The notes beneath the pieces were generated by a model. The model saw only the letters and a list, made by a program, of their open reading frames with translations, ran no database searches and was not told the origin of the DNA. Below, one piece after another: positions 5,304-32,281 of a stretch of 47,836 nucleotides of DNA (its first letter is position 1; each line of letters starts with the position of its first letter). The position numbers and the translations under genes were made by a program. The DNA comes from Actinomyces oris (GTDB lineage: Bacteria > Actinomycetota > Actinomycetes > Actinomycetales > Actinomycetaceae). The DNA lies in the NCBI RefSeq assembly GCF_001929375.1, contig NZ_MSGO01000042.1, forward strand, positions 1 to 47,836, in the 5' to 3' direction.

Positions 5304-5328
5304 GACGACGCGCCGCGAACGCATCCTG

Positions 5329-5364
5329 CTGGTCGGTGCCGCCCCAGCGGCCGGCACCGACCAG
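5329..5364. terminator. Bidirectional hairpin between convergent genes
   Basis: A perfect 13-bp inverted repeat, CTGGTCGGTGCCG at 5329-5341 and its complement at 5352-5364, with a 10-nt loop. It lies in the 66-bp gap between the sbcC stop and the stop of the convergent 942-aa membrane protein gene. There is no long T tract on either side, as is usual for GC-rich actinobacterial terminators. Confidence 0.75.
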
Positions 5365-5369
5365 TCGTC

Positions 5370-8198
5370 CTAGAAGATGCTGTTGTTGGAGTAGATCGTG
5401 ACGGTGGGCTCACCGTCGCCCTCCGGCAGCTCCACCTTCCCGGAGAAGGTGAACTTCACCTTGCGGGGGGCGGGGTTCTTGTCGAAGGCCGTCGGCTTGG
5501 GAGACCCGGAGATGTTGATCTCGTCAGAGGTGAAGGACAAGTCATTGCCGCCCTCGGAGAACTCCACCTTCGTGGCGTCCTTCTCCACCGACAACGAGGT
5601 CATGTCCGAGGAGGTCTGGACGGGGCAGATGTTGTCCATGTTCGTTGGAACAGTCGCACAGGTCTTCGTCTGCTCCTTAACCTTCTCCAGCGCCTTGGTC
5701 TTCAGCTCGTCAGTGGGAGTCGCATCCACCTTCTGGGTGCCCACCGACTCGGCCTCCGAGCTCGCACCCTGCCCCGAAGGAATCAGCGTGACCGAGGCCT
5801 CCTTCGCAGTGAGGTACTTGCTGACGGAGTCCGGCGCCGCCACCGGGTACACACCGGGGTAGGCGAACTGGGTCGCGGTGCGAGACCCACTCCACCCGCC
5901 ACTCTCCTTAGCCAGGTCGATGGCGACCCCTGCGACCTTCAGCCCCGGAAGCAAGGAGGAGCTGAAGTCCGCGGAGACCACGAGAGGCTTATCCACCTTC
6001 CAGCTGTCCAGGCCGAAGGAACCCGACGTCTTCGAGGCGGTGAAGTTGTACTCGAAGGCCTTCCCGTCCAGGGACAGATGAGCCTTAACCGTGGCGGAGT
6101 CACCAGAGATGGTGGGCTTGTCGATCTTGGTGACCTTGATCCTCGCCTTGGCGGCCTTGAGGGCGTCGTCGGTCAGCAGCTTGCGCTGGTCATTGGGGAC
6201 ACCGGGGTCCACCATCTTGGTGGCCTCAGCGGCCTTGCCCTCCGACAGGAGCGTCAGGTAGCTCTCAACCGCCTTGTCAGGGCCGCGCATGCCGTTGACG
6301 ACATTGAGCCCGACGACGCCGGCAACCACCAGCGCCACCACGACCCCGAAGGCCGACAGTCCCAGAATGACCTTCTTGCGCGAGGCCGCACTCATCGGGG
6401 CGGGCTCGGGCAACGCGCCCGCAGCAGTCGTGCCCGCGGTGGCTGCGCCGTCAAGACCGGGAGCCGGGGCCTGCGAGGCCGGCGTGGTCTCCACCCACTG
6501 CCCGGTCGCCGGGTCCATGGAGAAGACGGCGCCGGTGGCCGGGTCCATGGCGATACTGGCCCCGGTGGCCGGGTCCGTGCTGTACGCCCACTGCTGGGAC
6601 GGCGTCGTCGACCGGACACCGGAGGTGCCCGCACGCCAGGCCGCACTGGCCTTCTTCCCGCCGACCAGCTGCAGCACCGCCGGGAAGACGGAGTAGACCC
6701 ACAAGGGCAGCAGCTCCGCCAGCACCGAGACGATCGCCACCACAACCCCGAACAGGAAGAAGGTCAGGACGTTGGGCTGCATACTGACAGACATGTGGAG
6801 GCCGGCCCCGCCGCCCGAGGAGCGCATCGGGGTGTCAGCGCCTGAGAAACGCAACGGGAGCAGCCCGTAGAAGACGATCGCCCCCAGGACCAGCGACACG
6901 AGCGGAAGCTGCCAGACGCGCGCCCACTCGGTCCGCCCCGTGCGGGCACGCCTGACGCCCACGCGCACCGCCGCCGCCGCGATGGCCACGATCATGGCCA
7001 CGAACAGCAGGATCGACCAGCTGCCGAACCAGGTCCAGGCGTAGGCGTCGCCGTCCTTCTCGCCGCCCAGGGACGGCAGGAAGTAGGCCAGAGCCTCCGC
7101 GGCCTCGCTCTTGTCCAGGGTGAGGCCTCCCAGGGACCCCATGCCCAGGGCGAGCAGCACCAGGTTCGGCAGGAAGACCGGCAGCAGAAGAATCGAGGCC
7201 AGGCTCCACCCCTGGGTCAGCGCCGCAACGATGTAAGCGACGATGACGAAGACCCCCAGGACCACACCCAGTGCGGTACTCAAGGCGCCCAGCTCACGGC
7301 CAAGCTGCACCACCGGGCTCGGCAGTCGCTCGAGCAGCGACCCGCCACTACGAGCCACCACCAGCGCTACGAAGACCACCACAGTCACCAACAGGATCGT
7401 CATCAGCGCGGAGGAGGAGACCGTCATGACCTTCAGCCCCATCATCTCGGCGGTCGCGGAGAACGGAGCCGTCACCAAGCAGGCCACCAGCGCCACAGCC
7501 AGGGCCTCGGCTCCGGCCCGCGCCAGAGTCGGGACCAGCGGGGCCGCCGAACCATCAACTGCGCTCCGGCGGCGCGCCAGCCAGAAGACCCCGATACCGG
7601 CGGCGGTCAGTGCCCCCATGGGCAGCAGCGTGAAGGTCAGGGTGATGGTCTCGTACTCGTTCGACCCCGACATGACGAACTGCCCGCCCAGGCTCCAGCC
7701 CATGAGCAACGGCAGCGTGGAGAAGGTCGTCGGGAACGTCTTCGTCGTCGTCCCCATGGTCGAGATGGCCACAAGCGTGAGGATCGCGCTGACGGCCGCC
7801 GATCCGAGCACGATCGCGAGCGTCAGGGCCGTGGAGGTCAGACCCGGGGCACGGAACCAGGCGGTGAAGGTCTGCGCCAGAGGCGAGGACTGAGCGACCT
7901 GCCCGGGCTGCACGAACCCGCCTTGAGCCTGCGGCGCCGGCGCTCCAGGGGCGGAGGCGCCGGCGACCGGAACACCCATCGTGTGCGGGGCGGCCACGGG
8001 GTCGGCTCCAGCGGCGGCCGGAGGCGGCGGAGGGGCCTCAGTCACGCTGTACGCCTCAGGCGCGGGAGCACCCGGCGGAGGCGGCACGGGCACAGCGGGG
8101 AAACTGCCGGTCTCCGGCCCCGACGTCGTCGGGGGCGTAGGGGCTGGAACCTCACCAGTGCCATGCGAAGGATCGGGAGAAAAACTGCTGTTGGACAC
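5370..8198 (-). CDS. Large polytopic membrane protein with DPATG repeats and extracytoplasmic C-terminal domain
   Basis: A 942-aa protein I cannot name. The first ~115 residues are Pro/Ala-rich and disordered. About ten hydrophobic segments follow between residues ~120 and ~505. A soluble stretch then carries three 10-residue repeats (DPATGASIAM, DPATGAVFSM, DPATGQWVET; about 533-566). One more transmembrane helix (about 612-635) leads to a ~305-residue C-terminal region, likely extracytoplasmic, that begins GPDKAVESYLTLLSEGKAAEA, reminiscent of lipoprotein-type DUF4878-like folds. Start is GTG at 8198 with AAAGG 7 nt upstream. It is the last gene of the long minus-strand run, 161 bp after its neighbour, so it could also be independently expressed. 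Possible roles are transport, channel or signal relay; none is proven. Confidence 0.85.
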   Translation of the reverse strand: MSNSSFSPDPSHGTGEVPAPTPPTTSGPETGSFPAVPVPPPPGAPAPEAYSVTEAPPPPPAAAGADPVAAPHTMGVPVAGASAPGAPAPQAQGGFVQPGQVAQSSPLAQTFTAWFRAPGLTSTALTLAIVLGSAAVSAILTLVAISTMGTTTKTFPTTFSTLPLLMGWSLGGQFVMSGSNEYETITLTFTLLPMGALTAAGIGVFWLARRRSAVDGSAAPLVPTLARAGAEALAVALVACLVTAPFSATAEMMGLKVMTVSSSALMTILLVTVVVFVALVVARSGGSLLERLPSPVVQLGRELGALSTALGVVLGVFVIVAYIVAALTQGWSLASILLLPVFLPNLVLLALGMGSLGGLTLDKSEAAEALAYFLPSLGGEKDGDAYAWTWFGSWSILLFVAMIVAIAAAAVRVGVRRARTGRTEWARVWQLPLVSLVLGAIVFYGLLPLRFSGADTPMRSSGGGAGLHMSVSMQPNVLTFFLFGVVVAIVSVLAELLPLWVYSVFPAVLQLVGGKKASAAWRAGTSGVRSTTPSQQWAYSTDPATGASIAMDPATGAVFSMDPATGQWVETTPASQAPAPGLDGAATAGTTAAGALPEPAPMSAASRKKVILGLSAFGVVVALVVAGVVGLNVVNGMRGPDKAVESYLTLLSEGKAAEATKMVDPGVPNDQRKLLTDDALKAAKARIKVTKIDKPTISGDSATVKAHLSLDGKAFEYNFTASKTSGSFGLDSWKVDKPLVVSADFSSSLLPGLKVAGVAIDLAKESGGWSGSRTATQFAYPGVYPVAAPDSVSKYLTAKEASVTLIPSGQGASSEAESVGTQKVDATPTDELKTKALEKVKEQTKTCATVPTNMDNICPVQTSSDMTSLSVEKDATKVEFSEGGNDLSFTSDEINISGSPKPTAFDKNPAPRKVKFTFSGKVELPEGDGEPTVTIYSNNSIF
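6501..6590 (-). repeat. Three 30-bp coding repeats (DPATG units)
   Basis: Units start at 6501, 6531 and 6561 on the plus strand, each containing a near-identical GGCCGGGTCCATG-like core. They encode the consecutive DPATG decapeptides of the 942-aa membrane protein, with drift between units only in the second half. Confidence 0.85.
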
Positions 8199-8359
8199 AG
8201 GGCTGCCTTTGATAGGGAATCAAACACGGCAGTTCTACCCCATGGAAACCAGCCGCGCACCAGTTTCGTCCCCCAGTCTTGACATGCGATCCACGCTGTC
8301 CGCGAATAAGCACGGACAGAGCCTCCCCCGGTGCGCCCAACGTCCTACTGCACCCGAAG
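8199..8359 (-). other. Intergenic spacer upstream of the 942-aa membrane protein gene
   Basis: A 161-bp spacer. It holds one small inverted repeat, CTGTCCG at 8296-8302 and CGGACAG at 8313-8319, without a T tract. I see no convincing -35/-10 pair. Confidence 0.5.
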
Positions 8360-9382
8360 CTAGCCCTCGCCACCGGCCGAGTCGCCCTCACCCTGCTGGC
8401 CGTCGCCGCCTTCCTGAGAGCCGTCCTGCTGGCCCCCGGACTGGTCGGCACCCTGCGAACCCGAGTCCGGCGAGGCAACGCCCTGCTCGGCGGCCTTCTC
8501 CTTGACCGTGTTGAGGATGCTGATGAGGTCGTCCCGTCCGGGGAAGGACACTCCGGACTCCAGGGCCTTGAGGGCCTGGTCGACATTGCCGATCTTGAGC
8601 TGACCGGAGAAGCTCTCCGCATCGGCCAGGGTCTGCGTTTTGAGAACGCCCGCCCCGTAGTAGACGCCTGCCCCCGTGGCCACCAGGGGCAGGAACAGTG
8701 CCGCCAGGACCAGCAGGGCGGCAGGCCCCTTCGGCTTGGCTCTGGCCAAGGCCGAGCAGGACACGAGGAAGGCGAAGAAGGCCAGCACCGCGCCACCGCC
8801 GACAGCACCGATCGCCGCCCAGTTGGGCGTCCAGCTCCGAGTCGAGAGAATCTCGAAGACGTGCAGCGTGCTCAGCAGCGTGTAGGTCCCCCATCCCAGG
8901 GCTCCGCAGGCCGCCAGCACCATGATCGTCCCCACCGGCAGGGCGGCGGTACGACGGCGCTCAGGCGGGCGAGGAAGCTCCACCGGGGGCTCCGGCTCGG
9001 GCTCCCCCCAGGTCTCCTGCACCGGCACCTGGGAGACCGTGCGCCTTGCGGGCTCGGGGCTGGCGTAGACCGGCTGCACCGGCGTCGACATCGTCTGCCG
9101 CGCGGGCACGGGCTGAAGGACCTGGGTGTACTGGCTGCGCTGGTCCGGGGAGGCGGCCAGCTGCGGGGTCGACGTCGACGGCGGCAGGTACCCCCACCCC
9201 TCGCCCCCCGGCGGCATGGCGATGGCCTCCGTGACCCCCGGCTGTGCCTCCAACTGGTCAAGGTCGATCCGCTCGGTGGGCCGTCCGCGGTCAATGTGAT
9301 CGATGCGGTCGGTGCGATCGACGGCCGCGTCCGCCTCTGCGTCGTCGTCGAACTGCGGCCCACGGGAGAGAGGACGGGACAC
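8360..9382 (-). CDS. Three-TM membrane protein, paralogue 1 of a local family
   Basis: A 340-aa protein of unknown function. The N-terminal ~150 residues are hydrophilic, Pro/Glu-rich and start with SRPLSRGPQFDDDAEADAA; a membrane block follows with three hydrophobic helices (about 155-180, 195-220 and 227-250), beginning near LAACGALGWGTYTLLSTLHVF. A short conserved tail (VDQALKALESGVSFPGRDDL) and an acidic Gly/Gln-rich low-complexity end complete it. The membrane block and tail align by eye with the proteins at 26618-27205 and 29233-29904. Start is GTG at 9382, supported by AAGGAG 8 nt upstream. It lies 101 bp downstream of the GTPase gene in the same orientation, so probably belongs to the same transcript. 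Confidence 0.88.
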   Translation of the reverse strand: MSRPLSRGPQFDDDAEADAAVDRTDRIDHIDRGRPTERIDLDQLEAQPGVTEAIAMPPGGEGWGYLPPSTSTPQLAASPDQRSQYTQVLQPVPARQTMSTPVQPVYASPEPARRTVSQVPVQETWGEPEPEPPVELPRPPERRRTAALPVGTIMVLAACGALGWGTYTLLSTLHVFEILSTRSWTPNWAAIGAVGGGAVLAFFAFLVSCSALARAKPKGPAALLVLAALFLPLVATGAGVYYGAGVLKTQTLADAESFSGQLKIGNVDQALKALESGVSFPGRDDLISILNTVKEKAAEQGVASPDSGSQGADQSGGQQDGSQEGGDGQQGEGDSAGGEG

Positions 9383-9463
9383 GATGAGGCTCCTTGCCTG
9401 AGGATACCGATGGGGTCTCTACGTCCCCGAGGCTACGCCACCGGCGCCCCGGACACGAGGAGC
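9331..9463 (-). repeat. Copy 1 of dispersed repeat A (5' region of paralogue 1)
   Basis: This stretch covers the first ~17 codons, ribosome site and upstream spacer of the 8360-9382 gene. It matches 29050-29181 in the same orientation, nearly base for base over the first 70 bp and with decreasing identity after that. The shared part includes the GTG start and the AAGGAG site. Confidence 0.85.
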
Positions 9464-9483
9464 CGACGACCTCGCCGACGACG

Positions 9484-10674
9484 TCACAACGACAGATCTC
9501 TGACGTGCATGCCCCACAGCAGCGGATCGAGCACCCTGAACGGGGAGATACCTCGTTCTGTGAGCTGCTCGTTGTGCCGCGGAGACTCACCGACCGCGGA
9601 AACAGCGAAGTGCCGATACTCATGGATCTGCCGGTTCGCCTTGGCCTGCTCAGCCAGGAGCGTCACCGACTTCTCTCCGATCAGCTGGAAGAGCGCCCTC
9701 ACCTCTGCGTCCAGGAAATCGAGGTCTTCCATGAGCGCCTTGCCGGCGGCAGGTTCCTGCATTCCCGCCAGGATCATGGTGTCATCCCGGTTGATATGTG
9801 CCGCCGGATTGGCCAGCGCCGGCGCCATCGGACTCATCGCCTGGGGCAGCTGATGAAGAGAATCGAACTTGGAGACCGTCAGGGCCAGGAGCGCCCGGCC
9901 GGACTCCATGAGCCCCATAATTGCCGGCAGCACCTCCCCGGATCGCGCGCCCAGTCGCCCCTTATCGACGTCCGGAATGATCCCGGAGAGCACCTGCCGC
10001 ACCGAGTCCAGCAGAATCGGGTCGAAGAGGAATATGACCAGGTCGGCTCGATCATGGAAGCTGAACGCAGGCGGCCGACCAGTGAGGCTCTCCATGTCCT
10101 CACCCGGAACATCACGCATCACGATATACAGACGTCCCGATCGAGCCCCTGAGACCTCCCAGATGAGAGGATCACTCTCGAAGGACGCCGCCACGCCCAG
10201 CGGGTGGGTGCCCTCCATGGCCACATTCTCTTTGAACAGCGGCCGATAGTACATGGCGTTATAGGCGTCCTGGGTGCGGCGCGTGTACGGCTGCACCGTG
10301 CACGCCCTCTCCTGCGCATACCGACGCAACACGTTGACCATGACGGCGATATAAACAGATTTACCGGCCCCCCGCGCTCCCGTGATAGCCATGGTGAACA
10401 CATTGGCATCACGCCAGCCCTGCGGAAGGTCCCGATGGCAGACGCGACAGATTTCCTGAACGCACATCGACTGGCAACGCCGACACTTCACTGCACTCGG
10501 AAGAACCTTGACTTCCTGCCTCAGAGTCTCCCGATAGAAAGGAGTGCACCTCGTCTCATAACCAGCGTAGGAAGACGCCTGAGGATCCGGCGCGTCAGCA
10601 CACCCGCCGGTGCACCTCAAGAATATCTCGGACGGAGAGATCGGAGTGAAACAGTATGGGCACGCAGAACTCAT
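9484..10674 (-). CDS. Zinc-ribbon plus TRAFAC-type GTPase (DO-GTPase2-like)
   Basis: A 396-aa predicted cytosolic GTPase. The N-terminal ~90 residues hold Cys pairs typical of zinc ribbons (CPYC at 5-8, CTGGC, then CRRC...C...CRVC). The GTPase core shows G1/P-loop GARGAGKS (about 97-104), a G3-like DVPGE (about 186-190) and a G4-like SKFD (about 264-267), so GTP rather than ATP is the likely nucleotide. The arrangement fits the double-GTPase 2 (DO-GTPase2) family that has been predicted to act in bacterial conflict systems alongside GAP1 and vWA proteins; this assignment is from recall of the family, not a search. ATG at 10674 overlaps the preceding gene's stop (ATGA, 10671-10674), indicating coupled translation with the vWA protein. 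Confidence 0.85.
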   Translation of the reverse strand: MSSACPYCFTPISPSEIFLRCTGGCADAPDPQASSYAGYETRCTPFYRETLRQEVKVLPSAVKCRRCQSMCVQEICRVCHRDLPQGWRDANVFTMAITGARGAGKSVYIAVMVNVLRRYAQERACTVQPYTRRTQDAYNAMYYRPLFKENVAMEGTHPLGVAASFESDPLIWEVSGARSGRLYIVMRDVPGEDMESLTGRPPAFSFHDRADLVIFLFDPILLDSVRQVLSGIIPDVDKGRLGARSGEVLPAIMGLMESGRALLALTVSKFDSLHQLPQAMSPMAPALANPAAHINRDDTMILAGMQEPAAGKALMEDLDFLDAEVRALFQLIGEKSVTLLAEQAKANRQIHEYRHFAVSAVGESPRHNEQLTERGISPFRVLDPLLWGMHVRDLSL

Positions 10675-11594
10675 GATGACGTTCCAATCGACGCATTAGA
10701 TGAAGCAGGGTGAGAGAGCCAGTCCAGAAGGGGGTCCATGGTGGCAAGAGTCTGCGAGGTGAAAGCCGTGTCCTCCCGCAGAAGCTCATTCCACACATCA
10801 CCATCAGGAACGAAGTAGGGCGCCCCGCTGTGGGGGGCGAGCGCACGAACGATCTCCGGGCTCCCCACGACAAGGCACTCGCAACGCCCCGCCTCCAGGG
10901 GAATGTCAGTCACCACGATGCGCCTGCCCCGAGCATCGGGGTCCATTTGCACTGAGCCAACCCCACCCATCCCCGTTGAGGAGGCGCCGACCGAGCCACC
11001 GACACCGAAGGAACGGACAGGAGGTGCAGCAACGCCGATAGCTGCGCACGAGTCGGCCACAAAAGCCAGGAACGACTCCACGCGGGGCTGATGCTGCACC
11101 ATGGACGCGGAGGCGTCAACAACGATCTCCGTGATCGTTGGCGCCAAGGACGCCCCGGACTCCTCTCTGCGCTTGGCGCACCAGCCTCCCAGCCCGAGCG
11201 TCGCCGCACCCCCCTCACCTGGACGGACACGAATCGAGCCACCCTCCAGCGTGAGCTGGAGGAGTGGGGCGCTGGCCTGGCCCGCCACCGGGATTCCCCT
11301 GATGAGGTAGGCGTGCTCGCCACCGGCTGCGTCGAAGGACAGGTCGACGACGCAGTCGCCGGGGAACGCCTCCTGGGATGACGCGTTGGCACGAACGGTG
11401 ACAGGCCGTTCAGCCGAGACCGCTCTTCCAGGGAACGCGACGGCATCACGCGAGACCCCGAGATACTTCGGGGCGCTCGAGGTGCCCACGACCTCCAACG
11501 TGGCGGGCACGGGAGCGACCAGGCCGATCTCAAGAGCGCCTCGATTGCTCACCGAGAACTCTTTCCACTGCCCACTCGCGAGGATGTCAGACAT
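10671..11594 (-). CDS. Cytosolic vWA-domain protein
   Basis: A 307-aa protein without signal peptide or membrane helix. The N-terminal ~145 residues look like a beta-rich domain (alternating short hydrophobic strands, GCAKRREESG linker). A von Willebrand A-like domain follows, with a MIDAS-type DASAS in EIVVDASASM (about 158-167) and a later strand RIVVTDIPL. vWA domains bind partner proteins through a chelated metal; in bacterial ternary systems they typically partner a NTPase. Start ATG at 11594 has AAAGGA 6 nt upstream. It begins 30 bp after the GAP1-like gene and overlaps the GTPase gene by 4 bp, which argues that vWA and GTPase are made together and interact. Confidence 0.82.
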   Translation of the reverse strand: MSDILASGQWKEFSVSNRGALEIGLVAPVPATLEVVGTSSAPKYLGVSRDAVAFPGRAVSAERPVTVRANASSQEAFPGDCVVDLSFDAAGGEHAYLIRGIPVAGQASAPLLQLTLEGGSIRVRPGEGGAATLGLGGWCAKRREESGASLAPTITEIVVDASASMVQHQPRVESFLAFVADSCAAIGVAAPPVRSFGVGGSVGASSTGMGGVGSVQMDPDARGRRIVVTDIPLEAGRCECLVVGSPEIVRALAPHSGAPYFVPDGDVWNELLREDTAFTSQTLATMDPLLDWLSHPASSNASIGTSS

Positions 11595-11624
11595 TGGTTT
11601 TCCTTTCCCATAGCAGTCTCAGTA

Positions 11625-14429
11625 TCATCTCAGTATCCTCCGACGACTTCCGGAGCCACGACCCGCAGCAGACAGCAGGGCCTTATCGACCCAGCGGCGC
11701 GCCCCAGCATCATTATTGAACAGGCCATAAAGAATCGGTTGTGACAGCTCGACTCCCCCAGCGCCGCCGCGAGCGAAGACGGCACGAACTATCGCTAAAG
11801 CCGCATCATCCTTACTTGAGAACAGGGCAGAGGACTCCATTTCAGTTCGCTCCAGCTGACTCACCTTCTCATCAACCAGCATCCCCATGTCCTCGGACAT
11901 GCGAACGCCACTGCTGAAGTAGAGACTCTGGACCAAAGGCGGGATCAACGCACCCAACCCGTTGTCCTCGTCGGCGATCAGGTACTCCGGGTGACGTTGG
12001 AGAATATCAGGAAGCTCCGTCATCACCTGGGTCAGTTCCTGTTTCACCAGCAGGACCTCGGGACCGTTCCCCCTCAAGACGAAGTCCTCGAGAACGATGC
12101 GCCTACCGCCCCAGACTCCGGCCAGCAGCACCCCAACGGCCTTGACCATGGCTCGATGCACCGGATCGCGGCGGAGATCTCGACGTTGAGCCGCCAGCAC
12201 ACGGATGGCGATCAGCACGTTTCCAGCGTAGTTCAGGGCGGCATCGACACCCAGCTTGCTCATCAAGGGCATCTTCCGACTGAGCACGACCAGGCTCATG
12301 GCAGCAGAAGGGGAGACACGGTGAGCTAGCTCGGTAGTGAGGAGGCGCTCAGTGAGCCCGCAGCTGTTGAGGTGGTTCCGGACCACCTTTTCCACATTCT
12401 TCGAGCCATGGTTCCTGGCCAGGACCTCGGTGAAGATCTCGTGGAAATTCTGACAGCCATGAGGGAGGTGCTGCACCATGTCGGGCGTCGCCCGCCGTGA
12501 CAGTGCCTTGACCACCGTGGGCTGAAGACTGAAGACGCCTCCCAGGCGCTCCAGCGCCAGGCATGCCCGGCCGACGTCATTCCCACCAGCGGCGACCGCC
12601 GTCACGGCGACCTGCGCTTCAATCTGTACTCGATTCCCGGGTTCGTTGTCCTGGCTCAGCCAGTCCAGGACCTCGCGACTGAGGCTGGGCAGGACCCTCG
12701 GTCGCCCAGAGTGCTCCTCACTATCGAGCTGCCAGTTCACCCGGTCAGCCAGCAGGCTACGGCTGAGCGGCGTCGCCGGCACAGCAAGAATCTCACGCTG
12801 CTCACGAGAACCGTTGGCGGCCGGCTGCATCATGTCGGCGTACCCCTGCAGGAGAGAATCACACGTCCTCGTCGAGACGTTGACGTGCTCGCGCAGCATA
12901 CGATCCAGGACGCGCAGGCCCCCCGCAGTTCCCGGTTGCTCGGCCTCGACACGCTCTTTGGCGTGCACCAGTGCTGCATCGACCTTGGAGCGATGCTCCG
13001 GCATCCCGCTCCACTCACGCAGGCAGCGGTTGGCCTGCTCAGAGACGGGGCGTTCGAGGTCGGTCAGCCACCGGGCCTCGCGGCACGCGGCGTCAAGATA
13101 GCGTTCGCAGAGTCCACTGACGAGTCCACTCACTGGTGCCCACCGAGGAATCTGAGAGAGCCGCTCATACCAGGCGGCAGGGTTCCGCGTTGAAGAGCCG
13201 AGTACGCGATCGGTCACTACTGCCGCGAGGTAGTCATTACCGACCATGGACCTCGGATAGCACGACACGAGCTCAACCTCGATGAGCTCCGTCTCGTCCC
13301 CCGTCCGCTCCCCCACGTCCTGTGAAGAGCGCGGCGCCTCCTCCCGCTGAGACTCGAGGAGTCCAGGATCGCAGGCCTCGGCCACAGCCAGCGGCCACCC
13401 CGGGCTGAGATCGGAATGATCAGGCAGAAGGCTGAGGACGTCCTTCATTCCTTCGTAGGCGGCAACCCACGCTCCCAGATCCTGACTCATCAGGGCCACC
13501 AGGCGTCCCCACGACGTCGTTGGCGCCGGCTCGACGTCGCCGCCGCCCTCATTCGGGTCGATGACGACCAGGCCCGCTCGAGACTCCCCAATGTTCTTCA
13601 GGTCCTGTCTCGGGACGCAGGCCACGTCGATGCGAGACTGCACAAGCATCTCGACGTCCGAGGGCGTCAGGATCCTCTGGAGGACGGAATAGCTCAGGTG
13701 CCGTCCGGTGGCCGGGGCGCAGGTGCGCAGCAGCGCTCCGATCCACAGGGCGGCTTCATCGGTCGAGGACACCGCGAGGACCACAGTGTTCCTCCTGCTT
13801 GACCGGTCAGGCGGCACACCACCCCATTGGGCACGGATGGCCTGGACCAGCCCCGGCTCGAGAGCATCGGCCATGGCTACGAGGGCTGGGCTCCGCGAGC
13901 CGTCGGAGAGGAACTCGGCCACCGTGTCGTCGTCGACGCTGGTGCCGGGTCGCAGCGACGCCGGCTCGGGCAGCTCCGCCTGTCTCACCTGCTCGGGCCC
14001 GAAGGGAGTCACCCAGCCGGGTGACCTCCACAGATCGATGGTTCGTAGGTCGGGTGCCGGCTCATGGTGCTTCAGAAGCACCACATGAGTCATGGTGTTG
14101 GGCCGCCCCGTTGTGTCGTTCCCCGCCGGAGCGGTGTGGACGAGTACCAGCCCCTCGTCCGTCGAGAACTGCGCCAGGCGTCGATCAGCTGCCGCCACCT
14201 CCTGTGCCGTGGGAAATCCGGACAGGGGCGTCACGGGGTTGAGAGTGGGGTCGATCAGCGCGTACAGCGTGCTTGTGTCGCCTTCACTCAGTCCGGGAGA
14301 GTGCACCATCGTCTGCCACCCCGACCGTTCCACGCCGTCGACGACATGATCGACATTGGTGTAGAGAAGCTGCTCGCATCCCGACATCAAGCCGGCCTTC
14401 GGATCAGAGTCGTCTCCCACGAATGTCAC
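11625..14429 (-). CDS. GTPase-associated protein 1 (GAP1)-like protein
   Basis: A 934-aa cytosolic protein. The N-terminal part (CEQLLYTNVDHVVDGVERSGWQ, then LVLVHTAPAGNDTTGRPNTMTHVVLL and DLWRSPGWVTPFGPEQV) has the look of the GAP1-N2 domain, with a conserved middle (GRHLSYSVLQRI) and a long helical C-terminal half. GAP1 proteins are predicted from genome context to regulate the DO-GTPase class encoded next to them; no biochemical role is known to me. Start is GTG at 14429, inside a GTGA overlap with the stop of the upstream gene (14426-14429), preceded by AAGAAGG. Family assignment is from recognition and should be tested with profile searches. Confidence 0.75.
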   Translation of the reverse strand: MTFVGDDSDPKAGLMSGCEQLLYTNVDHVVDGVERSGWQTMVHSPGLSEGDTSTLYALIDPTLNPVTPLSGFPTAQEVAAADRRLAQFSTDEGLVLVHTAPAGNDTTGRPNTMTHVVLLKHHEPAPDLRTIDLWRSPGWVTPFGPEQVRQAELPEPASLRPGTSVDDDTVAEFLSDGSRSPALVAMADALEPGLVQAIRAQWGGVPPDRSSRRNTVVLAVSSTDEAALWIGALLRTCAPATGRHLSYSVLQRILTPSDVEMLVQSRIDVACVPRQDLKNIGESRAGLVVIDPNEGGGDVEPAPTTSWGRLVALMSQDLGAWVAAYEGMKDVLSLLPDHSDLSPGWPLAVAEACDPGLLESQREEAPRSSQDVGERTGDETELIEVELVSCYPRSMVGNDYLAAVVTDRVLGSSTRNPAAWYERLSQIPRWAPVSGLVSGLCERYLDAACREARWLTDLERPVSEQANRCLREWSGMPEHRSKVDAALVHAKERVEAEQPGTAGGLRVLDRMLREHVNVSTRTCDSLLQGYADMMQPAANGSREQREILAVPATPLSRSLLADRVNWQLDSEEHSGRPRVLPSLSREVLDWLSQDNEPGNRVQIEAQVAVTAVAAGGNDVGRACLALERLGGVFSLQPTVVKALSRRATPDMVQHLPHGCQNFHEIFTEVLARNHGSKNVEKVVRNHLNSCGLTERLLTTELAHRVSPSAAMSLVVLSRKMPLMSKLGVDAALNYAGNVLIAIRVLAAQRRDLRRDPVHRAMVKAVGVLLAGVWGGRRIVLEDFVLRGNGPEVLLVKQELTQVMTELPDILQRHPEYLIADEDNGLGALIPPLVQSLYFSSGVRMSEDMGMLVDEKVSQLERTEMESSALFSSKDDAALAIVRAVFARGGAGGVELSQPILYGLFNNDAGARRWVDKALLSAAGRGSGSRRRILR

Positions 14430-16630: not shown

Positions 16631-16721
16631 AATGAGTGTCCTCAGGATCGGTATGAGATGGCGAACAACGGGTTCAGTGACGCCGCCGCTGTCGATGTGC
16701 GCAGGCGCGGCCCGTCGCCCA

Positions 16722-19451: not shown

Positions 19452-19452
19452 G

Positions 19453-22400
19453 TCAGTACTCGATTCCGGATCCGAATGATGTCGGCGAGGCGCCCAGTTC
19501 CGAGGCGGGCGGAACTGAGGCGACAACACCACGAACACGACTGAGCTCGTCGTACATGTCCTGGGCGAGATCAATGGTCAAAGGCGTCGTCTCCACCAAG
19601 GAGCGTCTGCGGTAGTTGGTGAAGTGCCCGGGTTCATCGGCCTTTCCAGGACCAGGCAGGTAGTTCTGCTCCAGGTCGCCGAGAATCACGTCGCAGTAGC
19701 TCAAGAGCTTTTCACGTCGAAGCTCGGGATCCGCGAGCTGATCGATTCCGGCGGCCGGAGTGAGCCCGTCGACCTGCCCCCGTCCCAGGAGCGTTGATAC
19801 CGCCTCGTCCACCGGAGTCGTCACCCCGAAGGCGATCTGCGGCTCGTTGACGGAGGCGTCGGCCCATCGGCGCAGCACCCGCCAGGGCCTGAAGGCTTGC
19901 AGACCGTCCTCGCCCACCCGCAGATACGCCAGAAGGGATGACTCCAGCACCGCGGGCAGCCAGGCATTGGCGGTGATCATTCGTGACGGCGGAGTGAGCA
20001 TGGGAGCGGGGAAGGCCACCCACTCCTGCTCCTCGGTGTCCCAGACACGCACCGGCTGGGTGTCGGAGTGGCCGCCCCACGGTGCCCGTTCGATCCCTCC
20101 GGCCAGGGTGGCCATCCACCAGCCGCGCACCATGGTGAGGCGTTCTGCGTCGCCGAGGGGCAGTCCTCCGCTCAGGGGACGTGCTCGCCTGAACCGCCAG
20201 AACGCGTCCCGGGCTCCCGCCGAGCCGAGGGCCCGGTCCCAGGACTCGCACACGGAGCGCAGCAGGCCGGAGTACGCCACGGGAAGAGTGCGGGGGTAGG
20301 AGCCGAAGACGTCAATGCGGGCCACGTCCTCGTCCCCCAGGGCCTTGTCGACTCGGTCGTGCACCAGCTCACGATCGATCGTCGACTCCTGATCGAGGTA
20401 GTCGAGGAAGTCCTGGGCAACGCTCTGATTGCGCAGAGGGATGGGAGAGAAGGTGTATGCCAGCGCGGGCGTGTCACCGTTGTGAAGAGAGCGGTAGGTC
20501 TCGGTGCTGATCTCCACCAGAGGCCGCGCCATCTCCAGCGTCCGTTTCAGGCCGGCGAGAACGGCCTGCGAGCGCTGAGAGCGCTCATGCTCCCCCACCG
20601 TCTCGTCGGTGAGGAAGCTGCGCAGGGACTGGCTGCAGAAGACCTCGAAGGCCTCACCGCGCCGTGCGACGAACGCTCGGGCGCGGCCCAGGACTTCTGA
20701 GGGGCGTAGGCGCAGCTCGTAGCGCGCCGGCGTCGGAAGCGCGCTTCCGGTGGCGCCCTGGAGGCCTGCGGGGACCCATGCGGTCGTCACGGTGAGCAGA
20801 TCCTCCGGAGGCTTGTCCCCCGCCCCCTGCTCCCAGGTCCCCGAGATGACCTCCTGGACAGTACGGGAGTACGCCTGGTGGAAGTCGCGTTCACCGCCGA
20901 CGGCGTCGGCGATGTGCTCCTCGAACCGTCCGGGATACTGTTCCACCGGCATGAGGACGACCTCGTTGTGGGCGGTGGCGAACCGCTGCGGCACGATGCT
21001 GCCGTCGGCCTGGCCGGGTTGAGGCTCCTGGGGCCATGCGCTGTAGACGTCCGTGGCGACGTCGGCGATGCCCTGCTGGCTGGCGCGGACCGCCCGCGCG
21101 TCCACGAGGACCTTGCGGGCGTCGTCCAGGACGTCCTCCAAGGGCTTGACGGCTGAGGTCATCATGTCGCGCATCGCCGTGGCGAGGTGAGCGGCGGTTC
21201 GCGCGCTGAGCCAGTGGAACGCCGACTGCTGCAGCTCGGACTCGAGCTTGCCGGTCACTTCCCCGAGCCCCGCTCCACCGAGAACCGCCTTCCCCATGCC
21301 GCGCAGCTGGTTCAGGAGGGAGTCAGGGAAGGACAGGGGGTGCTGGGGCGCCAGATGCTCCATCGCCGAGACCCGGGGAATGAGCGTGTCCAGGACGCCC
21401 CCGGGCTGACGCAGCCGCCCCAACAGATACAGGGCGTAGGGCAGTCCGAGGTCGGCGATCGCCTGCCGGGTGGTGGCAACGAGGCGGTCAGACATCTCCT
21501 CGACTCGTTTGAGAGCGTAGTTGAGGCTGGCACGCTCGAGCTCGGAGACGAGGGCCGATTCCTTGGAGGTGATCAGCCACCGGTTCATCCCGTCAGCCCA
21601 TTCGGTCACCGGCATTCCCTCGGCCTGAGGCCGTTGAGCCAGCACGGCCTTGACCGCGTCCTTGGCGTGGCCCCCCAGGACGGACTTGTTGACGGTCGAG
21701 GAAGCCGTATCGCTCAGGAACCAGTCGATCGTGGCCTGGTCCACCGCCGAGCTTCCCGCCAGGACCGGGGCACCGGAGGAGGAGGGGAGTCCCAGGCTGT
21801 TCAGCTCGCTGTCCTGACGATGCGCCCACAGGTCGGCAAGTCGCTGGGTGTCACCGGTGGTGTCGCCCACCAGACGGAATCCGTCCAGGCTGTGGTCGAC
21901 GGTACGCCGAGCAATGCGTTGGGCGGCGTACTCGGCGTAGCGGTCCCTCCCAGTGCTCAGCGACGCGTACCCGAAGGATCCCCACGCCGTGTCCGTGGGG
22001 TCCACTCCCCAGCTTGTCATGTCTCGACCCGGAATGGAGACCTGGTTGGCGATGTCGTAGGAGACATAGTCGTCGAAAGCCGACGACGAGATGTAGCGCG
22101 CCAGGCCGCGCCCCATCCCCCGGAAGACTCCCTCGGTGGTGCCGTCCCCGAAAACCGCACCGGAGCCCCCGGCGCGCAGGCCGATCGGGGTGACTCGCTT
22201 GAACGCCCGCCCCGCCCGATTCGTCAGTCCGAGTGTCTCGTAGAGCCGCTGATCGAGCATGGCCGCGGCGCCGTCGGCCCCCGCCTGGGCAGCCACGATC
22301 TCCCCCAGCATGGCCAGGGTGTTGCCCGGCATGCCCGAGCGCATGTGTGCAGGCACCGAGGCGAAGGCCTCCGCGGTGTAGAGGAACACCGAGATCAGCT

Positions 22401-23034
22401 GGGGGTCGATCGCCGGCGTCGAGTTGACTCCGGCGATGAGGCGACACACATCCAGGGTCATGGAGGCCCCGGACCCTCCAGCCATCGAGGAGACGACGAG
22501 CACCAGAGGCGGAGCTGTGGTGTCGGGGGCGGGACCGGCTCCAGGCACCGCCTGCGACACCAGGGCCGCCTGCTCCTGAGACCTGGGGCTCACCATACGT
22601 GCGAGAGCCGACTGCACGGCCTGCGAGATGTCGCGCAACCGCGTCAGAACCAGCAGACGACCGATCCCCCGGAACTGTCCGGCACCCACCGTCACGGGGA
22701 AGGCGACGTCCTTGGGGCGGCGGGGCATCCAGGTGGCCAGCTGTCGCAGACCCTGGCTGCCGTTACGTTGAACCGACTGGGTCAGAGCCTCATCGACGAC
22801 GCGGTACTCACCGTTGGCGACGCCGCAGGCCACATAGGAGCCCCCTTGACGGCTCACCGAGGCCACGGCCTCACCCTGCTCCTCCTGGAGGGGGGTGTCG
22901 ACGTTGAGGAACTGCCAGCAGCCCGGCACCTCATCGATCCCGTGGACGGCCAGGTCCGCGTGCAGCTGGTCCAGCATGTAGGACAGCGTTCTGGCGCCCG
23001 ACCCACCGCATCCGACAACGAGGACCTTGTGCAT
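19453..23034 (-). CDS. Tubulin-like (Tubulin_2 family) GTPase
   Basis: A 1193-aa protein. The N-terminus has a nucleotide-binding loop VVGCGGSGARTL (residues 6-17). At about 177-192 comes SSMAGGSGASM, the counterpart of the tubulin/FtsZ G-box GGGTGS. This pair of Gly-rich loops at this spacing is characteristic of the bacterial Tubulin_2 proteins, which are much larger than FtsZ (~400 aa). The remaining ~900 residues are mixed alpha/beta with no membrane helix and end in SGIEY. Start ATG at 23034 has AAAGGA 11 nt upstream. A perfect TATAAT lies 33 bp before the start. Whether it polymerises is unknown; binding of GTP is inferred from the G-box. Confidence 0.85.
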   Translation of the reverse strand: MHKVLVVGCGGSGARTLSYMLDQLHADLAVHGIDEVPGCWQFLNVDTPLQEEQGEAVASVSRQGGSYVACGVANGEYRVVDEALTQSVQRNGSQGLRQLATWMPRRPKDVAFPVTVGAGQFRGIGRLLVLTRLRDISQAVQSALARMVSPRSQEQAALVSQAVPGAGPAPDTTAPPLVLVVSSMAGGSGASMTLDVCRLIAGVNSTPAIDPQLISVFLYTAEAFASVPAHMRSGMPGNTLAMLGEIVAAQAGADGAAAMLDQRLYETLGLTNRAGRAFKRVTPIGLRAGGSGAVFGDGTTEGVFRGMGRGLARYISSSAFDDYVSYDIANQVSIPGRDMTSWGVDPTDTAWGSFGYASLSTGRDRYAEYAAQRIARRTVDHSLDGFRLVGDTTGDTQRLADLWAHRQDSELNSLGLPSSSGAPVLAGSSAVDQATIDWFLSDTASSTVNKSVLGGHAKDAVKAVLAQRPQAEGMPVTEWADGMNRWLITSKESALVSELERASLNYALKRVEEMSDRLVATTRQAIADLGLPYALYLLGRLRQPGGVLDTLIPRVSAMEHLAPQHPLSFPDSLLNQLRGMGKAVLGGAGLGEVTGKLESELQQSAFHWLSARTAAHLATAMRDMMTSAVKPLEDVLDDARKVLVDARAVRASQQGIADVATDVYSAWPQEPQPGQADGSIVPQRFATAHNEVVLMPVEQYPGRFEEHIADAVGGERDFHQAYSRTVQEVISGTWEQGAGDKPPEDLLTVTTAWVPAGLQGATGSALPTPARYELRLRPSEVLGRARAFVARRGEAFEVFCSQSLRSFLTDETVGEHERSQRSQAVLAGLKRTLEMARPLVEISTETYRSLHNGDTPALAYTFSPIPLRNQSVAQDFLDYLDQESTIDRELVHDRVDKALGDEDVARIDVFGSYPRTLPVAYSGLLRSVCESWDRALGSAGARDAFWRFRRARPLSGGLPLGDAERLTMVRGWWMATLAGGIERAPWGGHSDTQPVRVWDTEEQEWVAFPAPMLTPPSRMITANAWLPAVLESSLLAYLRVGEDGLQAFRPWRVLRRWADASVNEPQIAFGVTTPVDEAVSTLLGRGQVDGLTPAAGIDQLADPELRREKLLSYCDVILGDLEQNYLPGPGKADEPGHFTNYRRRSLVETTPLTIDLAQDMYDELSRVRGVVASVPPASELGASPTSFGSGIEY

Positions 23035-23066
23035 GGTTCGATCGTTCCTTTCTGCCGACCTTCGGC

Positions 23067-23072
23067 ATTATA
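23067..23072 (-). promoter_or_regulatory. Possible internal promoter (-10 TATAAT) before the tubulin-like gene
   Basis: The minus strand reads TATAAT at 23072-23067 inside the 128-bp gap between the vWA and tubulin-like genes. This is a perfect consensus in a GC-rich genome where chance occurrence is low. No good -35 is visible 16-18 bp upstream. A small hairpin, GCCGA/TCGGC, lies between the hexamer and the ribosome site. Confidence 0.4.
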
Positions 23073-23162
23073 TGAAGTGGCTGTATTACCGCAGATCACG
23101 AACTGATGACCGGCGTGATATCGGCGTGCTCCGCCCGAGGCGGGACTCCCTTTGACAAGACG

Positions 23163-26000
23163 CTATAACGTGGGGAAGGCGGTCGGAGGGTCCTGGGGGC
23201 TGGAGCTGGACGAGGGACGCTGCGCCGCCTCCTGCGCCTCAGGGCTGGACGCCTCCTGCGACGATGTGCCCGAGCCGGTCGGGAAGCCGGCGAAAGGGTT
23301 GTCGTCGACGGGGTCGAGGGAGCCGAAGCCACCCCCGGCGTCCGGCATGGACGTCCCCGCGGTGGGCAGGGTCCCGATCCGCCCCTGGGCCGCCGAGCTC
23401 GACGCCCCGGTCGGCTTGGCGGGAAGGATCGAGTCAACGCGAGAGACGAGATGGGCACGGGCGTCGTCCACAACCTTGGCCAGGACGGCGTCGTCCATGG
23501 AGGCTGCCAGCACGATCAGGGTAACCCGCCGTACATCGTCCGACTGCGACGACTGGTCGGCAACCGCGATCCACTGGCCCCGGACCCCCAGGGGCAGGAC
23601 CGCTCTGCCCCCGCGCGATCCGGGTGTCGCCCCGGACACCGATGGCGCCTCCGGCTCGACGAGCTCAACCCTGGGGACTGCGGCAGGCGAGGCCCCCATG
23701 ATGGCGCGCAGACGATAGCCGTCCATCTCAAAGGTGCGCGTACGGCCTCGAAGGGAGTACATCCTCATCCGCTGGGAGGGCAGCTCGATCCTGGGAACGG
23801 TTCCGTCACCGGGAACCTCCACGACGGTCGTGCCCACGACCAGTGAGCCCGAGGGGATCACGGCCGACAGGTACTTGAAGAGGTAGAGAACTCCGATCGG
23901 GATCAGCACTCCGCACAGCAGCGCGATGACGAAGGCCGTCCATGCGGTGCCGACGTTGAGCGGGCAGCGCATATCGGCTTTGAAGGGGACGGCGACGCCT
24001 TGGGGCTCTCCCTGACTGTTCAGCGGAGCCACCGTAACGGTCACGGTTCCTGTCACCGCGCCGTTCGCGTGCTCCTGAGCCGCCAGCTTGACCGGCACCG
24101 TCCCCGTCTGCCCCTCCTCGACCTTGACGCACGTGTCCTTCGACGACGCCTGAGCCGAGAGCGTGACGGTTCCGGCCTCCTTCGGAGACCCGGTGAGCGT
24201 GGTCTGACCGTCCCCGATCCAGACACAGCCCGGGCCGGTGACCTTGAGGTCGGCGCTGGCCGAGGTCTGACCATCCATGCGACCGAAATCGATCTGATCT
24301 CCCAGAGTCGGATAGTTCGACGGCGGTGAGACGGTCACCGAGGTGGAGGCCAGCGATGGCGAGAGCGTTGTGCCTTTGACGGGTGAGCCACTGGCGCCGG
24401 TGGCATCGCCTGTCGTCACGGTGAGGCTGGTGGTCACGGTGCCGCTGCCTAAAGCGGCGTCCTTGGGGACAGTGATCCGTTGGGGCTTGGACAGTGAGGT
24501 CGGGTCGGTGCTGTTGAAGAGGGTGTGCTCCTTGCCCTTCGCATCCTTCAGCGACACGCTCAGGGAGACTGGACCGGTGAGATCGGAAGGCGGAACCTCA
24601 CGACCTCCGACTCCGTCAACCAGCTTCAGGTCGGCGTTCGGCACCGCCTCCCCCTGACGCAGCGTCGTCTGCCCCAGGTTCTTCCAGGCCATCGTCAACG
24701 GCGAGCTGAGGTGGAGATTGACATGAACCTCATGCCCTGCCGAAGCTGCCCGCCTGTCAACGAAGACCAGGCGCCACTGCCCGGCCCATGCGCCGGCGCT
24801 GCTGGAGTCAAGATCGATTCGTAGTGTCCGCCCTGTCATCCACTCGTATGAGACACCCTGCTTGTTCTGCGGCCCGGTGGAGTCCGGTGTCATCGCGATG
24901 GGCGTCTGAGAGCCAGGAGCGTAGAGGTCGGCCTCCAGTCCTTGCGTATCCGATGAGGCCAGAATGTGCACGCTGCGCAGCGAACGATCCAGGACGAAGC
25001 TGGTCTCGCCGTCGGAGCACACGTCTCCCTGACAGATCTTGGTCACGCTGCTGGAGACGGAGCGCCCCGGGGCGGAGATCGAGTCAAAAGCCATGAGCAG
25101 CGAGTCAATATCCGTCACGGGATAGAATCCGCCCGGAGGATCGGATACATTGCCGCACGACTCAACGGAGTTCTTAGCGGCATTCGCCCCTCCACCCAAC
25201 GTGATTCTCTTCATGAAATCGAAGTTGGAGTCTCCGTTGCTCAATCCAATGCCCAGCAAGGTGATGTGGGAGGAACGCAGCTGGTCAGCGAGTCCGGTCG
25301 GCCGGCACATGTCCTGCTTTCCCGCGGACTCGGCCGTCTTCACGCCTGACTCGTCAGTCAACGCGGAGCCAGGGGCATAGGGCTTGGCGGTACCGAACTC
25401 CTGCTGGGACTGCTCAGAGTCCCGCACATCGAGGTCGTAGGCGCCGTCCGAGAACCAGGCCACCGCGCGACACTCTGATCGGTCATGTCCCGCGAGGTCC
25501 TGACGCGCCCCCTCCAGAGCGGTCCAGTAGTCTGTGTCGTAGTCCTTGAGATCGTCTCCGGCCACGGTGATCTGCTTGTCGACCTCAGCCAGGGAACCTG
25601 AGTTGATAGTGACCCAATCTCCCAGTGCGTGATAGTCGGAGGCGAATCCCGCAACCCTCACCTTCAACGTGACCTTGGAGGAGTCGGCGAAGGCTGCAAG
25701 ACGCTGCACAAGATACTTGCTCGCCCTCACTCTCGCCTTCTGCGGATCCGACTGCCGCAGGGAGCCCGACTGGTCCATCAGGAGGACCAATGACCCCTCG
25801 CCCTTACCTGACAGGCAGGCCCCGAATGCACTCAGAGGTCCAGGGGACTGATCCTCCTGAGGTGCGGCGAGAGCCTGAGGAGCAGTCGACAGAGCGCCCC
25901 CTGCGAGCACGAGGAGCGTGACGCCCAGAGCTGACAGGACGTTGACGGCCAACCGCCTCAATCGATGGATCAGTTCACAGCAACTGCGACGCGGGATCAT
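23163..26000 (-). CDS. Secreted/anchored vWA-domain protein with C-terminal membrane helix
   Basis: A 945-aa predicted type I membrane protein. It has an Arg-rich N-terminus and hydrophobic core LSALGVTLLVLAGGAL ending STAPQALAAP (signal peptide, about 1-45). A vWA domain follows with MIDAS DQSGS (about 75-79) and a strand ending FSDGAYDLD. A central beta-rich region (about 290-680) contains Cys pairs, and a transmembrane helix FVIALLCGVLIPIGVLYLF sits near 687-708. The ~235-residue cytosolic tail ends in a Pro/Ser-rich segment. Start ATG at 26000 lies 7 bp after the upstream gene's stop; longer in-frame starts would run through that gene. Likely role: extracytoplasmic sensing or adhesion, coupled through the tail to the tubulin/GTPase components encoded downstream. 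This is inference. Confidence 0.85.
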   Translation of the reverse strand: MIPRRSCCELIHRLRRLAVNVLSALGVTLLVLAGGALSTAPQALAAPQEDQSPGPLSAFGACLSGKGEGSLVLLMDQSGSLRQSDPQKARVRASKYLVQRLAAFADSSKVTLKVRVAGFASDYHALGDWVTINSGSLAEVDKQITVAGDDLKDYDTDYWTALEGARQDLAGHDRSECRAVAWFSDGAYDLDVRDSEQSQQEFGTAKPYAPGSALTDESGVKTAESAGKQDMCRPTGLADQLRSSHITLLGIGLSNGDSNFDFMKRITLGGGANAAKNSVESCGNVSDPPGGFYPVTDIDSLLMAFDSISAPGRSVSSSVTKICQGDVCSDGETSFVLDRSLRSVHILASSDTQGLEADLYAPGSQTPIAMTPDSTGPQNKQGVSYEWMTGRTLRIDLDSSSAGAWAGQWRLVFVDRRAASAGHEVHVNLHLSSPLTMAWKNLGQTTLRQGEAVPNADLKLVDGVGGREVPPSDLTGPVSLSVSLKDAKGKEHTLFNSTDPTSLSKPQRITVPKDAALGSGTVTTSLTVTTGDATGASGSPVKGTTLSPSLASTSVTVSPPSNYPTLGDQIDFGRMDGQTSASADLKVTGPGCVWIGDGQTTLTGSPKEAGTVTLSAQASSKDTCVKVEEGQTGTVPVKLAAQEHANGAVTGTVTVTVAPLNSQGEPQGVAVPFKADMRCPLNVGTAWTAFVIALLCGVLIPIGVLYLFKYLSAVIPSGSLVVGTTVVEVPGDGTVPRIELPSQRMRMYSLRGRTRTFEMDGYRLRAIMGASPAAVPRVELVEPEAPSVSGATPGSRGGRAVLPLGVRGQWIAVADQSSQSDDVRRVTLIVLAASMDDAVLAKVVDDARAHLVSRVDSILPAKPTGASSSAAQGRIGTLPTAGTSMPDAGGGFGSLDPVDDNPFAGFPTGSGTSSQEASSPEAQEAAQRPSSSSSPQDPPTAFPTL

Positions 26001-26007
26001 ATGCCAC

Positions 26008-26520
26008 TCACATCCTACCCACGAACAAAGCGATTCTGACAGAGGCGGCCACAATGGCCAGGAAGCATAGCAGCACCGACAGTCGGTACAGGAGCTGGGG
26101 GCGCGAAGAATAGAGATACCATGGGCTTGTCTGACGTTTGGCGTTCTGAACGACGAAGACCGTGGCGGTCCCCAGTCCCACCAGCACCGCAAGCACCCAG
26201 CCGATCCCGGCCACCACGACGGACTCGAATAATGCGGACAAGGCGATCGCGATGACGGCTGCTGTCAAAGCGACGTAGAGGAGCCCTTCGGGGGCCTTGG
26301 TCACGTGGATCGAGGTGCTCTCGGAACGCCAGGTCGAGCCGTCGGTCCCGGAGCCGAATCCGATACCACTGCGCGTATCGCCGTCCCTCGACCGGAGGCT
26401 GCCGGACGCCCCCTGCGTTGCAGCTGCCTGTGAGGGCGCTCCACCTGTACTGCTGAAGTCCCCCGCGGAGGGCTGCTTCGACCAGGATCCCGCACTAGGA
26501 ACCTTGGGAAACTGCGCCAT
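26008..26520 (-). CDS. Small membrane protein, first gene of the tubulin/GTPase operon
   Basis: A 170-aa protein with a hydrophilic Ser/Gly-rich N-terminus (about 1-78) and three hydrophobic segments: VALTAAVIAIALSALF, then VVVAGIGWVLAVLVGLGTATVFVV, and, after a Tyr/Arg-rich loop, LSVLLCFLAIVAASVRIALFV. No family recognised. Start ATG at 26520 follows AGAGGATGATGAG. It ends 7 bp before the vWA protein start, so the two are co-translated. Function is unknown; the context suggests a membrane component of the same complex. Confidence 0.78.
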   Translation of the reverse strand: MAQFPKVPSAGSWSKQPSAGDFSSTGGAPSQAAATQGASGSLRSRDGDTRSGIGFGSGTDGSTWRSESTSIHVTKAPEGLLYVALTAAVIAIALSALFESVVVAGIGWVLAVLVGLGTATVFVVQNAKRQTSPWYLYSSRPQLLYRLSVLLCFLAIVAASVRIALFVGRM

Positions 26521-27205: not shown

Positions 27206-27277
27206 CCTCGACGCCTCCCGACAACAAAAACAGCGCAATCAGCCCACGCTGCACCGTCAGTACTCCGAACCCCATAG

Positions 27278-32206: not shown

Positions 32207-32281
32207 GGGATGATTCTCCCCCACCTCTCCCCCCCCCGCCCTGTGCACCGCGGGCGCCCGGGTCGGCGGGGTCGGGAGGGC

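Follow-up and report, generated by a model that had tools for sequence, protein, structure and literature searches.

Co-varying C-terminal tails on a tubulin-like GTPase and a neighboring membrane protein in an FtsZl1/GAP1-N2 operon of Actinomyces oris

A set of genes in Actinomyces oris, at positions 5370 to 26520 of contig NZ_MSGO01000042.1, encodes a tubulin-like GTPase and, directly after it, a protein with two transmembrane (TM)-like segments, and these two proteins end in similar short peptides that co-vary between species. The window that we analyzed comprises 47,836 nucleotides. The original prediction, made from the letters of the window, had described the ten genes as one operon for a membrane-associated machine; we call them A to J, and all of them lie on the minus strand. 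C (19453..23034) is a 1193-residue GTPase of the FtsZl1/Tubulin_2 kind with a modeled tubulin fold and long helices within that fold, and D (16722..19451) is the 909-residue protein with the TM-like segments. In both, a disordered linker leads to a C-terminal peptide. The C-terminal peptide of C is ...PTSFGSGIEY (19456..19485, minus strand; residues 1180-1193 are modeled as disordered) and that of D is ...PESLSGPLEY (16725..16754, minus strand), which places GSGIEY in C against SGPLEY in D. The operon itself is an ordinary member of a known, predicted kind; what is new is that the tails co-vary and that C, modeled over its whole length, shows a tubulin fold.

We compared the C-terminal tails of 28 gene pairs in 54 loci; both ends could be read in 55, of which one was dropped as a broken copy. 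C and D were the sole pair with a clearly positive tail similarity, 8.28, followed by C and H at 0.72, and all remaining pairs were negative. For 47 distinct C-D pairs, the score of the last six residues was 8.74, as compared with 1.81 when the D tails were shuffled over all loci and 5.49 when they were shuffled within genera (0/5000 in each case). A second set was taken from the genus of the Corynebacterium striatum genome G743. Both tails could be read in 44 of the 45 regions fetched there, and 37 pairs were distinct; this set overlaps in some genomes with the first. Its score was 15.76 against 1.88 (standard deviation 1.37) for shuffled tails, and none of 10,000 shuffles reached the observed value. 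The tail pairs of C and D in this genus include GLV/GLV, GLM/GLM, GLD/GLD, DDTF/DETF, GEF/GEF and DDI/GDI. The match is limited to the last eight residues: z values of 6.6 and 4.5 drop to at most 1.5 further in, and those of 9.7 and 6.5 in Corynebacterium to at most 1.2. At identical C and D tail residues, the same codon was no more frequent than expected. Because the match ends at residue -8 and the codons are no more alike, we conclude that selection on the peptide, not DNA copying, keeps the tails alike.

The tails also change together. A tree of 99 non-identical C proteins showed joint change of the final residue of C and D on 10 branches, in all 10 cases to the same residue; this residue changed in C only on 14 branches and in D only on 12. 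At position -2, co-change led to the same residue in 6 of 13 cases. The C-terminal ends are hydrophobic in 94 of the 99 C proteins and in 91 of the 99 D proteins. The last residue is the same in C and D in 13/13 Actinomyces loci, 37/47 Corynebacterium loci, 3/6 minimal operons and 5/7 others. The minimal operons are those of six distant relatives of C (L114, L115, L116, L137, L138 and L139), which lie in small operons where C stands between a large gene and D; the tail pairs of five of them are EREFL/DREFL, TTGIL/PTGIL, DTGV/DSGI, DPLI/NDLI and GIVV/NLVI. Overall, tail matching is strong in Actinomyces, in Corynebacterium and in five of the six minimal systems, weak in Mycobacteriaceae, and absent in most Gordonia and Rhodococcus.

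The minimal operons also show how the core is divided. D was recognized in all six, with two TM-like segments in each, although in L115 and L116 it is divided between two genes. The gene before C encodes a vWA protein in four of the five tested (L137 gave no match and L114 was left out). Profiles of E, F, G and H found nothing in the fetched stretches of these six loci at an E-value of 0.05. Since operons of B, C and D exist without detectable E to H, the tubulin-membrane module is separable from the GAP1/DO-GTPase module. The core therefore consists of two modules: one of vWA protein, tubulin and membrane protein, which is also found alone, and one of FNIII-place protein, GAP1, vWA protein and DO-GTPase. 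This split agrees with themes described by Kaur et al. (2020, eLife 9:e52696, PMC7159879). A scan of named genomes with an alignment of C gave at least 52 loci, a sample that sets a lower bound, and all were actinobacterial (Actinomyces, Mycobacteriaceae, Gordonia, Rhodococcus, Corynebacterium and others). Among the matches listed, GAP1 follows in 45 of the 52 loci, and the other seven lie on contigs that end before the place of GAP1. A gene of 308-363 residues comes after GAP1 in all eight loci that were laid out. In the Corynebacterium genus of G743, 49 of 161 genomes encode C, and the laboratory organism Corynebacterium glutamicum has profile matches to both Tubulin_2 and GAP1-N2. Among 296 genomes of the class, Tubulin_2 was found in 20, GAP1-N2 in 32 and both in 8; in these 8 the two were close together on one contig in three and on different contigs in five. 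Homologues in independent contexts, which the original prediction had named as evidence against a single machine, thus occur in part at the family level, with the two families together in 8 genomes only.

The assignment of C is supported by a Pfam match to Tubulin_2 (E 1.1e-38, 133.9 bits against a cut-off of 27). The G-box GGSGAS is present, as had been read from the window, and its glycines are conserved in relatives: G186, G187, G189, A190 and S191 are invariant in 41 aligned members. The structural model of C has long inserts, around which it takes in the two domains of the tubulin fold, and it aligns across the tubulin/CetZ fold, which differs from the FtsZl1 account of Makarova and Koonin (2010, Biol Direct 5:33, PMC2875224), in which T6-H7 and any similarity of the C-terminal domain were not confidently identified. 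The long helices at 476-529 and 587-648 and the mostly helical end of the model fit the coiled coil and helical C-terminal part of FtsZl1. According to the model, the whole of C has a tubulin fold with inserts, and C would be expected to form GTP-dependent polymers.

D appears to consist of an N-terminal alpha/beta domain, a helical part, the TM-like segments at about 536-580, a C-terminal domain and a disordered tail at 861-909 (AF2 model, mean predicted local distance difference test score 86.2). A role of D as a SLATT 2-TM effector was considered and rejected, as DUF4231 matched only 2 of 47 family members, with a best E of 0.0073. A (26008..26520) is a predicted 170-residue membrane protein with a Pro/Gly/Ser-rich N-terminus and hydrophobic helices towards the C-terminus, and it matches no Pfam family. 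B (23163..26000) encodes a vWA protein of 945 residues, predicted to be signal-anchored and extracytoplasmic, with the metal-ion-dependent adhesion site (MIDAS) motif DQSGS (VWA_2, E 1.7e-06); it is predicted to have one further TM segment, a cytosolic region and a tail with DNPF. Many B tails (DDNPFAGFP in the window, and the B genes of L043-L094) finish with a long linker rich in Pro and Gly that contains [DN]P[FW] or FG motifs, possibly another binding motif. The second vWA protein, G (10671..11594; 307 residues), lacks a signal sequence and has an intact MIDAS; taken alone it gave no vWA match in Pfam, and D-x-S-x-S-M is invariant in 11/11 aligned members. The earlier distinction between one extracytoplasmic and one cytosolic vWA protein agrees with the predicted topology, and sensing outside the membrane would have the extracytoplasmic vWA domain of B as its sole basis. 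E (14426..16630), a 734-residue protein, is present in 10 other Actinomyces loci and stands where GAP1-N2 systems have their FNIII-repeat protein, though it gave no Pfam match to fn3 or HRDC.

F (11625..14429) is a GAP1 protein of 934 residues, in which GAP1-N2 was matched above the Pfam cut-off (E 3e-16, 60.1 bits against 24), GAP1-M slightly under it (21.3 bits against 24) and GAP1-C not at all. H (9484..10674), a zinc-ribbon GTPase of 396 residues, contains the sequences GARGAGKS, DVPGE and SKFD that the original prediction had pointed out, and the P-loop lysine, DxxGE and KFD are conserved in relatives. The window H alone is under the Pfam cut-off for DO-GTPase2 (E 0.011); 17 of 20 aligned members of its family match, the best with 4.5e-11, and judged by these profile matches the H family is DO-GTPase2. 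K105, D188, G191, E192 and D193 are invariant in 20 members, a set that includes the Walker-B glutamate. In the two N-terminal zinc ribbons of H, C5/C8 and C76/C79 are invariant and C21/C25 and C64/C67 nearly so among 10 members; in a wider set, the Corynebacterium proteins lack these cysteines, and of the four pairs only the first and the last remain in the mycobacterial members and in L077.

Systems of this kind had been predicted in two papers. FtsZl1/Tubulin_2 operons were described by Makarova and Koonin (PMC2875224), and they are alike in the Tubulin_2 protein with a coiled coil, the vWA partner, the divergent GTPase and the membrane proteins. Kaur et al. (PMC7159879) described an actinobacterial tubulin theme among GAP1-N2/DO-GTPase systems, which they predicted to be conflict systems; these share GAP1-N2, a zinc-ribbon DO-GTPase, a single tubulin with a C-terminal helical part, a membrane vWA protein and the FNIII-place protein with our operon. 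Their actinobacterial systems include one FNIII-repeat protein with a fused HRDC domain. Neither D nor the cytosolic vWA protein G appears in the passages of that paper considered here, and the terms "C-terminal motif" and "C-terminal tail" are absent from its main text. Our analysis adds the tail matching and the two-module split. The earlier statement that several members match no recognized family holds for Pfam, yet the whole system had already been predicted. In the open-licence papers covered by our search, we found no mention of shared tails in the main texts and no experimental study of FtsZl1/Tubulin_2 systems. Two questions are now testable, namely whether FtsZl1/Tubulin_2 proteins have a whole tubulin fold, to which the model answers yes, with inserts, and what binds what. 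For the latter, the co-varying tails suggest how parts of the machine recognize each other and provide an eight-residue handle for finding the receptor.

Our preferred reading of the locus, on which we are evenly poised between belief and doubt, is a membrane-tethered tubulin machine of the FtsZl1/GAP1-N2 kind, built of two modules, in which one receptor site reads the tails of both C and D. In the first module (A-B-C-D), B would present its vWA domain on the outer side of the membrane and another part on the inner side, C would be a cytosolic GTPase polymerizing with GTP, and D would span the membrane twice with both ends predicted to be cytosolic. That C and D keep the same disordered peptide while it drifts between species is best explained by one receptor drifting along, and such a co-evolving site would be encoded in the operon. 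The minimal operons hold little that is recognized beyond B, C and D, so the receptor is probably one of these three. Since the C-terminal peptide of FtsZ binds its own core and gates polymerization (PMC12747378), the core of C would be the first candidate; the second would be the cytosolic part of B. FtsZ likewise combines a tubulin-fold core, a disordered linker and a short terminal peptide, for which SepF is a receptor (PMC3418248), whereas in our operon a membrane protein, too, bears almost the peptide of the tubulin, and the two co-vary. D may thus offer at the membrane the same peptide as the flexible arm of C, and it could either anchor the polymer or compete with the tail of C, freeing C from self-inhibition and gating assembly. 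The second module (E-F-G-H) would set the timing of this assembly by means of the DO-GTPase/GAP1 switch, the FNIII-place protein and the cytosolic vWA protein. Eukaryotic alpha-tubulin and EB1 share -EEY tails bound by CAP-Gly proteins (PMC3303835), so that there, too, a tubulin and another protein have an acidic-aromatic C-terminal peptide in common; we draw an analogy only and claim no homology of the tails, and Pfam found no CAP-Gly domain in the ten proteins. We tentatively suggest, with less confidence than in the machine as a whole, a tail code in which D mimics the C-terminal peptide of the tubulin. A single co-evolving receptor would then either bridge the filament and the membrane anchor or be the object of competition between them, as an independent counterpart of the -EEY tails.

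A number of observations weigh against this reading. Gordonia and Rhodococcus/Williamsia mostly lack the match, with the same last residue in 1/7 and 2/5 loci, respectively, and in Mycobacteriaceae the terminal F is shared in 14/14 loci but the last two residues in 0/14, with own C-D pairs scoring no better than other pairs (1.4 against 1.2). Clear misses occur in Corynebacterium (L196, L198 and L201) and in the minimal operon L138 (SLHD/FDAI). Co-change to the same residue falls to 1/5, 2/7 and 0/8 at positions -3, -4 and -5. The tail of D is the best match to that of C among frames of at least 80 codons in only 51 of 99 loci, and in the window it is second of 294. The covariation test singled out no receptor, and the catalytic T7 loop was not located in C. 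In Actinomyces, own pairs score 11.8 against 9.4 for other pairs of the genus, an excess that is modest because EY is the ending of most tails; more can be learned from G016 and G020, in which both tails end in F, and from L045, in which both end in VY.

In the more distant Tubulin_2 loci of the Streptomyces type (L119-L126, L215-L217 and L220), the genes before and after the tubulin often end in acidic-tryptophan motifs, as in L123 (...SSDPWNETQF and ...VDEEDDLW) and L126 (...DGEENPW, with a tubulin ending in ...NPWEREPE). The motif is missing in several of these loci, for example L121, L122 and L217. These ends suggest that a shared C-terminal peptide may be a wider rule that involves other partners.

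The similarity of the tails could also have arisen without a receptor encoded in the operon. One such explanation is an artefact of gene conversion, of composition or of a ribosome-binding-site constraint at gene ends, and the tail of C does adjoin the start of D, so that sequence there serves translation initiation too. This is largely refuted and very improbable: it fits neither the codons nor the end of the similarity at -8, no other core gene pair is clearly above zero, and the match recurs in minimal operons where D is the last recognized gene. Alternatively, the tail might be a degradation or targeting signal for a housekeeping factor, such as a protease adaptor or the secretion machinery, with C and D merely co-regulated substrates. 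Short, disordered, hydrophobic ends resemble C-terminal signals generally, and the ends of C and D are of this type. However, the tails diverge widely within one genus and yet remain matched, which is hard to square with a conserved housekeeping receptor, and we consider this explanation improbable.

Two further accounts concern the purpose of the machine, and both are compatible with the tail wiring. In a conflict (immunity) system as predicted by Kaur et al. (PMC7159879), the DO-GTPase/GAP1 pair would be the switch, the FNIII and vWA proteins would sense an invader, and the tubulin and membrane proteins would form a multimeric effector. Most of the published description is found here (GAP1-N2, DO-GTPase2 with its Walker-B glutamate, tubulin and membrane vWA protein), the accessory membrane genes are variable, and presence is patchy, both in the Corynebacterium genus of G743 and in Actinomyces, where C is present in 11 of 36 other genomes of the genus (complete in 10, a fragment in G008). 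On the other hand, PADLOC-DB 2.0.0 gave only one marginal match for the ten proteins (HEAT-ARM_XIII, E 0.013, 10.8 bits), and no effector resembling a toxin or a nuclease was recognized by Pfam. The order of the core does not vary within the genus, and tubulin modules occur without a detected GAP1/GTPase switch; immunity is rather unlikely in our estimation. A membrane remodeling or vesicle machine in which the tubulin forms the polymer and immunity plays no part (Makarova and Koonin, PMC2875224) is possible, if by no means expected. The module of vWA protein, tubulin and membrane protein is the part common to the systems examined, and the C model has a tubulin fold, but the accessory status in most genomes speaks against a housekeeping role in the envelope.

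All ten open reading frames were confirmed. The two overlaps of 4 bp, at 14426-14429 and 10671-10674, the single base between C and D (19452) and the 7 bp between A and B (26001-26007) are exactly as had been reported. The remaining gaps are 128 bp (B-C), 91 bp (D-E), 30 bp (F-G), 101 bp (before I) and 161 bp (before J). Promoter-like and terminator-like sites in 5000-24900 were not above chance (0 against 1.3, and 5 against 6.3, respectively). The order A-B-C-D-E-F-G-H is constant in the window and in 10/10 other intact Actinomyces loci, and the window C shares 77% identity with its A. bowdenii counterpart. A lone tubulin-gene fragment in L042 (G008, about 9991-10899; 98 residues, 57% identity) is apparently the relic of a lost operon. 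The notion of one membrane-associated machine is strengthened by an order fixed in 11 loci, by parts predicted on both sides of the membrane and by the tubulin-fold GTPase, but the two GTPase families are not obligate partners.

The last two genes are of a different standing. I (8360..9382) is a predicted multi-TM protein of 340 residues, with relatives on either side of the core across Actinomyces loci. J (5370..8198), a multi-TM protein of 942 residues, has repeats of the type DPATGA..MDPATG, and its C-terminal region weakly resembles Rv0361_Cterm (E 5.4e-05, under the cut-off). Genes resembling J occur on the upstream side in G033, G012 and G029 (short) and on the downstream side in G006, G003 and G028, and were not found in G034, G014, G016 and G020. 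Because I and J are moved or absent in relatives, the ten-gene operon of the original prediction is better described as an eight-gene core, A to H, with membrane accessories on both sides, including upstream of 26520. Directly upstream of A lies a 206-residue multi-TM paralogue of I (26618..27238, minus strand), followed by an LRV_2 protein (27278..28105, minus strand; 275 residues, E 2e-13) that recurs upstream of A in Actinomyces loci. Three multi-TM paralogues in all (8360-9382, 26618-27238 and 29233-29904) flank the core, none with a Pfam family above the cut-off, and relatives adjoin the core in 10/10 other intact Actinomyces loci. Between two small genes, a fragment at 28904-29047 is 92% identical to residues 700-747 of a GH42 beta-galactosidase (29972-32248), and near it is a 33-residue stretch resembling the start of I; both are traces of local duplication. 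The wider flanks contain SbcD/SbcC-like genes downstream on the plus strand (538-5303) and, upstream (29972-34855), the GH42 beta-galactosidase and a BNR/laminin-G (sialidase-like) protein.

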